Shown here: positions 25,311-29,028 of the stretch, one piece after another
Layout: each line of letters begins with the position of its first letter
Numbering within the stretch: the stretch's first letter is position 1
Assembly (NCBI RefSeq): GCF_034039665.1
Contig: NZ_CP120131.1
Location: 646,206 to 710,205, forward strand
Length of the DNA stretch: 64,000 nucleotides
Origin: Mammaliicoccus sp. Dog046
GTDB lineage: Bacteria > Bacillota > Bacilli > Staphylococcales > Staphylococcaceae
Reading direction: 5' to 3'
Translations under genes and position numbers: made by a program
Notes under the pieces: generated by a model
What the model was told of the DNA's origin: nothing
Databases searched by the model: none
Seen by the model: the letters and a program-made list of their open reading frames with translations, nothing else

Positions 25311-25778
25311 TTAATCTTCTTTAAAGATATCTTTCCAGCTATCTCTCTTAGATAAAAATTCAGTTGCTAATTGTTGCGCGCCTTCTAATGAATGGCTAGC
25401 TGCCCAACCGCATTGTACTTCGTTACAAGCTGGTACTTCAGTTGCTTGTTCAACATCTTTTAATGTTGCTTCTAAGATATTTAATACATCATCATAATCA
25501 TCATGGTTGATAAATGAAGCGTAAAAACCTGTTTGACATCCCATTGGGCTAACGTCGACAACTTTATCTGTATGATTTCTAATGTTTTCTGCCATTAAAT
25601 GCTCTAATGAATGTAAAGCAGGCATTTCCATATGTGCTTTGTTAGGTTGTTTAAAGCGGATATCGTATTTATGAATCACGTCACCGTGTAATCCTTCTTT
25701 AATTCCTGCAAGTCTTACAAACGGTGCCTCAACGATTGTATGGTCTAAATTAAAACTTTCAACATTCATTTTTGTCAT
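25311..25778 (-). CDS. luxS: S-ribosylhomocysteine lyase
   Basis: A 155-residue LuxS enzyme that cleaves S-ribosylhomocysteine to homocysteine and the AI-2 precursor DPD in the activated methyl cycle. The metal ligands are visible in the [14 protein letters not shown] motif (His-x-x-x-His) and in the C-terminal [16 protein letters not shown] segment; the catalytic Cys is in MGCQTGFY. Length is normal. It faces deoB convergently and has its own promoter on the minus strand. Confidence 0.97.
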
Positions 25779-25912: not shown

Positions 25913-26455
25913 ATGGAAAGGTTAAAAGTAGTCCCATACGATAGTATATGGCAACATCTTTTTCTAGAAGAGAAGAAGTATTTACAGTCATTGTTGAAAG
26001 AGCATAGTGTCAGTATTGAACATATTGGGTCAACGGCGATTCCTGGATTATCTGCGAAACCAATTATAGATATATTAATCGTTGTGAAAGATAGTCAGTC
26101 AATAGATGCATTTACACATGAACTTTCAGTTTTAGGGTATGAGTCTAAAGGAGAAAGAGGCGTTATCGGAAATAGGTATTTTAAGAAGTATGATCAATAT
26201 GGTGCGGTATCGCATCATTTACATATATATGATGAGGGTAGCCCACACATTTTGAGATTACTATCCTTTAGAGATTATTTAAGAACGTTTAATGGTGAAA
26301 GAGAACGTTATAGCAGATTAAAGCATGATTTAGTCTTGGACTATCCAGATGATAGCGTAGCATATTATAAAGGAAAAGATAGCATGATTAAAGAATTTGA
26401 GAAAAAGGCAGAAAAATGGTATTTAAATTCTAATGATATTGCTACAAAACATTGA
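25913..26455 (+). CDS. GrpB / UPF0157 family protein
   Basis: A 180-residue protein of the GrpB (UPF0157) family, a nucleotidyltransferase-like fold. Visible marks are VPYDSIWQHLFLEEKK at the N-terminus, the core SIEHIGSTAIPGLSAKPIIDILI with GS and the acidic D-x-D-like pair, and the C-terminal YYKGKDSMIKEFEKKAEKWY. Family function is not established; CoaE fusions exist in some species. The promoter of the downstream SAM riboswitch overlaps its 3' end. Confidence 0.85.
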   Translation: MERLKVVPYDSIWQHLFLEEKKYLQSLLKEHSVSIEHIGSTAIPGLSAKPIIDILIVVKDSQSIDAFTHELSVLGYESKGERGVIGNRYFKKYDQYGAVSHHLHIYDEGSPHILRLLSFRDYLRTFNGERERYSRLKHDLVLDYPDDSVAYYKGKDSMIKEFEKKAEKWYLNSNDIATKH

Positions 26456-26480
26456 CATATCCGAGTGATAAAGTTAGAAT
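26452..26480 (+). promoter_or_regulatory. Promoter of the SAM-riboswitch operon
   Basis: TTGACA (26452-26457), 17-base spacer and TAGAAT (26475-26480), overlapping the last codons of the GrpB-like gene. Transcription would start about 15 bases before the aptamer. Confidence 0.75.
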
Positions 26481-26501
26481 TAAAAACAAATTTCATACGA
26501 A

Positions 26502-26640
26502 TTATCCAGAGAGACTGAGGGATGGGCCCGATGAAGTCCAGCAACCTCCCATAACGGAAAGGTGCCAATTCCTACAGTAACGTACTGAGAGATAAATGAT
26601 TGATTGGCGCACTCCTTAACAAGAAGTGCGCTTTTCTTTT
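26502..26640 (+). ncRNA. SAM-I (S-box) riboswitch with terminator
   Basis: The S-box core is present: TTATC closing stem with GATAA (26591-26595), AGAGAGACTGAGGGA, GGGCCCGATGAAGTCCAGCAACC cut as GATGAAGTCCAGCAACC, and AAGGTGCCAATTCC. The expression platform is a terminator, GCGCACT (26607-26613) with AGTGCGC (26625-26631) and TTTTCTTTT. By family knowledge, SAM binding favours termination, so the two downstream genes are switched on when SAM or methionine is low. Confidence 0.95.
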
Positions 26641-26656
26641 GGAAAGGTGAATGGAA

Positions 26657-27844
26657 ATGAGTAATTTATCGCAAAATATTATTAATTATATAGAACAAAA
26701 TAAACATTTATATTTATCAATGAGTCATCAAATTCATGAAAGACCTGAATTAGGAAATGAGGAAGTATTTGCTTCAAAATTATTAAGTGATCAATTAAAA
26801 AAACATCACTTTAATATAGAGACAAATATTGCTAAACATCCTACAGGTTTTATTGCTACATATGATACAAACAAAGAAGGACCGACGATTGCATTTTTAG
26901 CAGAATATGATGCTTTGCCGGGACTTGGACATGCATGTGGTCATAATATTATCGGTACTTCAAGTGTGCTCGCAGGCATTAGTTTATCAAAAGTGATAGA
27001 CGAAATAGGTGGGAAAGTCGTTGTTCTTGGTTGTCCAGCTGAAGAAGGTGGCGTCAATGGTAGTGCGAAAGCAAGTTATGTTAAAGCAGGCATAATTGAT
27101 GATCTTGATGTTGCACTCATGGTTCATCCTGGTCACGAAACTTACGTAACCGTGCCTTCATTAGCGGTAGATGTATTTGACGTTAAATTTTATGGGAAAA
27201 GTGCACATGCATCTGAAAATGCAGACGAAGCAATTAATGCATTAGACGCAATGTTATCGTTCTTTAATGGCGTAAGTATGCTTAGACAACAAATTAAGAA
27301 AACGGATAAAGTGCATGGTGTTATCTTAAACGGTGGAGAAGCAGCAAATATTATCCCTGATTATACACATGCACGATTTTATACACGTGCAACTTCTCGT
27401 AAATCTTTAGATGTGTTAACGGATAAAGTAAGAAAAATTGCTGAAGGTGCAGCGATTCAAACAGGTGGAACGTACGAGCTTCGACCAATTCAAAATGGTG
27501 TAAATGAATTTATTATTAACAAACCGTTAGACGAATTATTTAGAAAACATGCAGAAGAAATAGGAGAAGAAGTAATTGAAGATGATTTTGGTTTTGGATC
27601 GACTGATACAGGGAATGTGAGTCATATCGTACCGACTATACATCCACATATAAAAATTGGACCTTCAGATTTAGTCGGACATACGAAAGAATTTTGTCAG
27701 GCAGCTGCCAGTCAAAAAGGCGATAAAGCATTGATAAGCGGTGCGAAAATTTTAGCATCAATGGGTTTAGAACTGATAGAGAACGCGTCCCTTAGAAATG
27801 AAATTATCCAGCATCATCAAACATTAAGGGAGAAATTACTATGA
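26657..27844 (+). CDS. M20-family amidohydrolase, PM20D2-like
   Basis: A zinc peptidase-fold amidohydrolase of about 395 residues. Metal-site motifs are visible: IAFLAEYDALPGLGHACGHN (typical of the aminoacylase/PM20D2 branch), CPAEEGGVNGSAK with the catalytic Glu pair, HPGHETYV, and the dimerisation-lid region with YGKSAHASENADEAINALDA. ATG at 26657 was chosen over 26651 because GGAAAGGTG then has proper spacing. It is directly controlled by a SAM-I riboswitch and overlaps the next gene in ATGA. The likely substrate is an N-acyl or dipeptide linked to methionine or cysteine metabolism; this is inference. Confidence 0.85.
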   Translation: MSNLSQNIINYIEQNKHLYLSMSHQIHERPELGNEEVFASKLLSDQLKKHHFNIETNIAKHPTGFIATYDTNKEGPTIAFLAEYDALPGLGHACGHNIIGTSSVLAGISLSKVIDEIGGKVVVLGCPAEEGGVNGSAKASYVKAGIIDDLDVALMVHPGHETYVTVPSLAVDVFDVKFYGKSAHASENADEAINALDAMLSFFNGVSMLRQQIKKTDKVHGVILNGGEAANIIPDYTHARFYTRATSRKSLDVLTDKVRKIAEGAAIQTGGTYELRPIQNGVNEFIINKPLDELFRKHAEEIGEEVIEDDFGFGSTDTGNVSHIVPTIHPHIKIGPSDLVGHTKEFCQAAASQKGDKALISGAKILASMGLELIENASLRNEIIQHHQTLREKLL

Positions 27845-29028
27845 AAAAAGAATATAGGAAATCATTACCTTTAACTTTGAAAGACATTTATGAAGAAGAT
27901 ATGATTTATAATGCACGACCTTCATATGAGGATAATCCTTGGTTAAAAGCAGAGGAAGCCCAGTCTAATTTTTTAACAGCTAGAGAACTTATCATTAGTG
28001 ATATGCCTATGATTGTACATGAAGCATGTATAACAAAAAATGCGAAAGACCTATTAAGTCTAGTAGCGCTAGAAATACCGAATAACATTCACACATTCTA
28101 TGATCAATCATCATATGAAGCACTTATTAAACAATTATGTCACCAAAATAAGAAAATCTTCTTTCAATATATTCATGGTGACCATCTTTGTGAAACAGAA
28201 TCATATGCGGTTAACAAATCAACATTCATCGATTTAAATAATAAGACAAAAATTGAACAATGGACAGGTGGTAAATATTTACCACAAAGAGAAATTGTTA
28301 ATGTGGAAGACTTTGAAAATCGAGTGAAACAATGGACGTTACCGATTGTCATTAAGCCAGGTGATGAGTTACCAACAGCAGGCGGATATGGCGTGATGAT
28401 TTGTTACAATGAAGAAGATTTAAATCAAGCGATAAAACGAATCAATGCAGCAACTGAAACAAAAAATATCATCATTGAGCAATTTATTGAAGAAATTCAA
28501 AATTACTGTGTGCAGTATAGTTATAGTAAAGAACAAGGTATTCAATATTTAGGTGCCGTTCAACAACTAACAGATAAATATGGATTTTATAATGGCAATG
28601 TCAATTTGAATGAAGTGCCTGAAAGTGTAATAGAAGCGGGATATGAAATTATGAAGAATGGCGTTGAACATGGTTATACGGGTGTGTCAGGATTCGATTT
28701 ACTCATTGATAAGAATGAAGACGTATATGCCATTGATTTGAACTTTAGACAAAATGGTTCTACAAGTTTATTGTTACTTCAAGAACGTTTACAAGAAGGG
28801 TATCATAAATTTTTAAGTTACCATTCCAAAGGCAATAATGCACACTTCTTAGAAACAATTAAAAAGTACATAAGAGAAGGCTATTTATACCCATTATCTT
28901 ACTATGATGGAGATTGGTTTAAAGACGAGCAAGTAAAGTCCCGATTTGCAGGTATATGGCATGCTGAAAATGAGTCAATTGCACTTGAAAAAGAACAAGC
29001 ATTTATAAAAGAAATAAGCGAAAAATAA
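27841..29028 (+). CDS. ATP-grasp ligase of unknown substrate
   Basis: A 395-residue protein with an ATP-grasp domain in its C-terminal two thirds: the nucleotide lysine in LPIVIKPGDELPTAGGYGV near residue 175, NIIIEQFIEE near 215, and the metal-binding end FDLLIDKNEDVYAIDLNFRQNG with Asp and Asn near residue 300. The N-terminal third does not match a family I can name. ATP-grasp enzymes join a carboxylate to an amine or thiol through acyl phosphate. It overlaps the M20 gene by 4 bases, so the two are co-translated under the SAM riboswitch. A dipeptide-type ligase paired with a hydrolase is a fair guess, not more. Confidence 0.72.
   Translation: MKKEYRKSLPLTLKDIYEEDMIYNARPSYEDNPWLKAEEAQSNFLTARELIISDMPMIVHEACITKNAKDLLSLVALEIPNNIHTFYDQSSYEALIKQLCHQNKKIFFQYIHGDHLCETESYAVNKSTFIDLNNKTKIEQWTGGKYLPQREIVNVEDFENRVKQWTLPIVIKPGDELPTAGGYGVMICYNEEDLNQAIKRINAATETKNIIIEQFIEEIQNYCVQYSYSKEQGIQYLGAVQQLTDKYGFYNGNVNLNEVPESVIEAGYEIMKNGVEHGYTGVSGFDLLIDKNEDVYAIDLNFRQNGSTSLLLLQERLQEGYHKFLSYHSKGNNAHFLETIKKYIREGYLYPLSYYDGDWFKDEQVKSRFAGIWHAENESIALEKEQAFIKEISEK

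Follow-up and report, generated by a model that had tools for sequence, protein, structure and literature searches.

The closest described counterparts of the locus analysed here come from Staphylococcus aureus. LdmS of this species (SAOUHSC_02373; PDB 7R8P) is reportedly the subject of Pederick et al. 2022 (doi 10.1016/j.jbc.2022.102392), whose enzyme we take to be LdmS. PMC12235713 gives SAOUHSC_02373 the name L-aspartate-L-methionine ligase, and papers whose titles concern LdmS and the Met-X specificity of HmrA are cited within PMC13338154 and PMC11511702. S. aureus HmrA is reported to be an M20D peptidase with a preference for Met-X dipeptides. Two further systems are comparable in part, namely the SAM-I (S-box) riboswitches of the methionine regulon of Bacillota, and mammalian carnosine synthase with PM20D2.

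The window examined here is a 64,000-nucleotide stretch of the 2.57 Mb chromosome of Mammaliicoccus sp. Dog046 (NZ_CP120131.1, positions 646,206 to 710,205), and contains an hmrA-ldmS operon. As in S. aureus, its LdmS matches the equivalog model far above the cut-off and has hmrA as its neighbour, with 60% identity to the protein of the S. aureus-type locus L041 (itself 98% identical to 7R8P over 102 residues). Similarly, its HmrA is a full-length orthologue with the M20D motifs of the S. aureus enzyme (PDB 3RAM). In contrast, the window locus carries a SAM-I leader and is thus placed under SAM-I control, whereas L041 is among the loci without one. The aptamer, the mutually exclusive terminator and antiterminator, and the position 5' of methionine-related genes are those of methionine-regulon SAM-I riboswitches, but here the riboswitch governs a dipeptide ligase/peptidase operon instead of genes for methionine biosynthesis or transport. 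The mammalian pair likewise joins an ATP-grasp dipeptide ligase to an M20D dipeptidase of the same subfamily, the ligases being likened by ATP-grasp class alone; it differs in its substrates, and in the window both genes lie in one operon. The arrangement itself is mostly known and the enzymology largely published, and what is added here is a modest evolutionary and regulatory result.

A SAM-I leader with a classical expression platform

Transcription of the operon is predicted to start from a sigma-A-type promoter, TTGACA-17-TAGAAT (26452..26480, + strand), which is an exact match and whose -35 box overlaps the stop codon of the upstream GrpB-family gene. The 34 relatives that bear the riboswitch have the same promoter layout 5' of the aptamer. 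The SAM-I aptamer (Rfam RF00162) lies at 26499..26598 on the + strand; in a covariance-model search, the check that the earlier note had proposed, it aligned to model positions 1-108 with 76.6 bits (E 3e-16), above the gathering score of 44.4 bits. It is followed by an intrinsic terminator (about 26606..26640, +), which folds as a G+C-rich hairpin and then a U-rich tract. The promoter, aptamer and terminator that the earlier note had described upstream of the two genes are thus all recovered.

Helix search and stepwise folding place an antiterminator at 26562..26610 (+), in which GTGCCAATT (26562-26570) pairs with GATTGGCGC (26602-26610). This 9-bp helix is the longest between the aptamer and the terminator region, and it is mutually exclusive both with aptamer helix P3 and with the terminator. 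In stepwise folding it is the preferred structure for transcripts whose 3' end falls at about 26610 to 26626, when the 3' arm of the terminator has yet to be transcribed. The terminator is present in the seven congeneric loci, five of which have the 9-bp antiterminator and a sixth a shorter form of 7 bp. Judged from sequence and folding, the hmrA leader is a classical S-box expression platform.

Four other SAM-I leaders are present in the genome, located before a metN-type ABC operon, metK, a metX-type homoserine acetyltransferase and a small ORF (the met gene names being assigned from translations). Because three of these four precede metN-type, metK and metX-type genes, hmrA-ldmS is part of a normal methionine regulon. 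Additionally, luxS (25311..25778, - strand; PF02664), which encodes S-ribosylhomocysteine lyase, lies nearby and outside the operon. LuxS is a neighbour in the SAM recycling pathway. Among the sampled loci, its gene also neighbours hmrA in Staphylococcus and Mammaliicoccus, and was not found at those of other genera.

The fourth leader, with SAM-I and a terminator, precedes an ORF of 73 aa (MRTREDILADL...) located outside the window at L130:1328-1719 (C1:2177849-2178240). The ORF was found in 20 of the 60 genomes searched, in Mammaliicoccus and related genera, and each of these 20 copies has SAM-I in its leader. The copies share a conserved start, MRTRxD[IV]L, and a ribosome-binding site, and the neighbours vary among the loci looked at. 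No Pfam, NCBIfam or PHROGs family matched the product above its cut-off; the predicted structure of the product, of moderate-to-low confidence, is a helical hairpin with two short strands. This small SAM-I-controlled ORF may be the more novel lead. Elsewhere in the window, 36719-36793 matches the S. aureus small RNA tsr31 family with 54.9 bits (cut-off 50).

Orthology of the two enzymes

The promoter-proximal gene, hmrA (26651..27844, + strand), encodes an M20D metallopeptidase. As read from the sequence, its true start is likely the ATG at 26657, since the upstream AAAGGTG ribosome-binding site is 7 nt away from this codon and only 1 nt away from 26651. The product matches S. aureus HmrA (PDB 3RAM) over its full length with 632.7 bits and TIGR01891 with 220 bits, contains domains PF01546 and PF07687, and by eye carries the M20D motifs GHACGHN, PAEEGG, HPG and GHT. 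By these matches it is an orthologue of S. aureus HmrA, and Met-X dipeptidase activity is predicted for it. After HmrA itself, the best solved relative is human PM20D2 ('Xaa-Arg dipeptidase') with 217 bits, the next reaching 60 bits, which agrees with the PM20D2-like M20 hydrolase of the earlier note.

The second gene, ldmS (27841..29028, +), overlaps hmrA by ATGA. Its product scores 634 bits against the NCBIfam equivalog model NF047900 (cut-off 475 bits) and 539 bits against PDB 7R8P, and beyond LdmS itself has just weak matches to CPSase-type ATP-grasp families. It is 73% identical to LdmS of M. sciuri, and the ATP-grasp core residues K172, D299 and N301 are invariant from Staphylococcus to distant Bacilli (alignment A2). 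On this homology the gene is an ldmS, and its product is predicted to ligate L-Asp and L-Met. The amide-forming ATP-grasp ligase suggested by the earlier note is therefore confirmed as a class, and its guess of a methionine-containing dipeptide agrees with the published biochemistry of LdmS and HmrA. Its enzyme classes stand, but not its implication that the functions were open, as both are already known enzymes.

Conservation of the pair and loss of the riboswitch

LdmS above the cut-off was found in all 60 Staphylococcaceae relatives and in one genome of a neighbouring family (G062), and was absent from the remaining 38 genomes searched in the order. At all 61 loci hmrA is directly upstream of ldmS, and the gene order is constant. 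The riboswitch is more restricted: an Rfam scan at gathering level over the 61 loci located SAM-I in 34 of the hmrA leaders, the remaining 27 comprising 26 clean absences and one decayed copy. In the LdmS tree (66 rows), the clean absences form one group, a Staphylococcus clade to which the S. aureus-type locus belongs, and absence amounts to two changes, of which the second is G038. A lenient SAM-I scan of 13 riboswitch-negative loci recovered a remnant in G038 only, and no T-box leaders were found near hmrA in the surveyed loci. The simplest reading is thus an ancestral riboswitch that was lost later. The earlier note had proposed such a survey, and held that routine occurrence of the pair without the riboswitch would refute its reading. 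The pair does occur routinely without it, in 27 of 61 genomes; the tree reads this absence as secondary loss, and the sulfur link of hmrA-ldmS therefore stands.

Both Staphylococcus groups retain the promoter ATGACA-17-TARAAT, suggesting that the Staphylococcus clade lost the leader segment lying between promoter and gene. In G038, the aptamer has decayed to 40 bits, under the gathering score (L079:1602-1701), and ldmS (L079:3001-4170) is interrupted early by an in-frame TAA, with hmrA intact; switch and ligase have apparently decayed jointly.

Other control elements were also sought. A conserved block of riboswitch-less Staphylococcus, CCGATARAATAAGTAATAATT, is the -10 region of the ATGACA-17-TARAAT promoter and locus-specific, and was assigned to no regulator. 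The luxS-hmrA intergenic regions of these loci (L036-L052 and others) share the conserved block ATGACA-17-TARAATAAGTAATAATT, in which the conserved stretch just past the -10 box is a possible regulator binding site. A CymR operator was discarded: in the 600 nt upstream of hmrA, scores with a Bacillus CymR consensus were 13-16, no better than for shuffled sequence. hmrA goes unmentioned in the main text of the S. aureus CymR paper and in that of a sulfide transcriptome paper.

Among 399 sampled Bacilli genomes, six from outside Staphylococcaceae gave LdmS-like matches, four of which passed the LdmS cut-off; neither hmrA nor SAM-I lies beside the genes of these six. The homologues of another Bacilli family have 41-45% identity and likewise no hmrA or SAM-I nearby. 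HmrA homologues (52-53% identity) are encoded elsewhere in two of the six genomes, so that in other Bacilli families ldmS and hmrA are apart, or hmrA was not found. The two most distant LdmS-like genes (L107:709-5819 and L108:2687-6162) lie in arrays in which YheC/D-like ATP-grasp genes are repeated and which also hold partial copies of the LdmS-like genes themselves.

A probable SAM-repressed methionine-dipeptide operon

The reading preferred here, with a probability of roughly 70%, is that of a SAM-repressed methionine-dipeptide operon for methionine scavenging and buffering. At high SAM, the nascent leader would be bound, the aptamer helices would hold, the terminator would form and hmrA-ldmS would be off. 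At low SAM, GTGCCAATT would pair with GATTGGCGC, blocking the terminator, and both enzymes would be made. This SAM response is deduced from the leader sequence of this strain and by analogy with the SAM-I class, which is well studied. HmrA would then free methionine from Met-X dipeptides, feeding the Met/SAM pool from peptides, and LdmS would condense L-Asp and L-Met, yielding Asp-Met that is either kept as a protected pool or put to a separate use. A futile cycle is not necessary, because HmrA reportedly prefers N-terminal Met and Asp-Met carries Met C-terminally. From the earlier note's proposal that a dipeptide is made, trimmed or recycled at low SAM, SAM-I control and methionine-dipeptide chemistry hold; we infer the low-SAM chain, as we do the substrate specificity of these orthologues and their physiological role.

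The high aptamer score, the exclusive terminator and antiterminator recurring across the genus, the LdmS and HmrA matches, the cited titles on LdmS and HmrA, the methionine genes behind three of the four other SAM-I leaders, the adjacency of the genes at every locus and the joint decay in G038 all support this SAM-repressed reading. Against it count the 26 Staphylococcus genomes that have both genes without the switch, which show SAM control to be dispensable for the function, and the LdmS homologues of another Bacilli family that lack hmrA and SAM-I nearby. There is also a paradox: Asp-Met synthesis at low SAM uses up scarce methionine. A peptidase that frees methionine suits a low-SAM response well, but the fit of a methionine-consuming ligase is not obvious, and therefore a role in protection or buffering, a pairing for repair and LdmS as a passenger all have to be considered.

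The closeness of HmrA to PM20D2 among solved relatives, the strict adjacency in 61 of 61 genomes and the overlap of the genes in this genus are consistent with a metabolite-repair pair, in which LdmS would make a useful Asp-Met and HmrA would destroy mis-made side products, comparable to carnosine synthase and PM20D2. However, hmrA is intact in G038 despite the stop codon in ldmS, both genes are apart (or hmrA was not found) in other Bacilli families, and the reported Met-X peptidase activity points to a substrate range of its own for HmrA, so that a repair role is considered unlikely. That stop codon, confined to ldmS in this one genome, is in turn compatible with a switch that serves peptide scavenging by HmrA and carries LdmS as a passenger whose role is not tied to SAM, as are the promoter-proximal position of hmrA and the presence of LdmS without nearby hmrA or SAM-I in other Bacilli. 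Passenger status nevertheless appears quite improbable given a linkage and order that are constant in all 61 genomes, and an ATGA overlap that suggests coupled expression in Mammaliicoccus.

A more novel reading, which we regard as doubtful, is that Asp-Met would be a SAM-gated methionine reserve or signal of its own in an ancient Staphylococcales dipeptide pathway under SAM feedback, and that the S. aureus-type clade would later have released this pathway from SAM control through loss of the riboswitch, with the promoter retained. LdmS was named from S. aureus, whose locus type has no SAM switch. The likely ancestral SAM-I leader is thus independent genetic evidence tying the Asp-Met ligase and HmrA to the SAM/methionine response. 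It directs experimental work to Mammaliicoccus or Macrococcus-like species, in which the signal is known, and the low-SAM paradox becomes directly testable.
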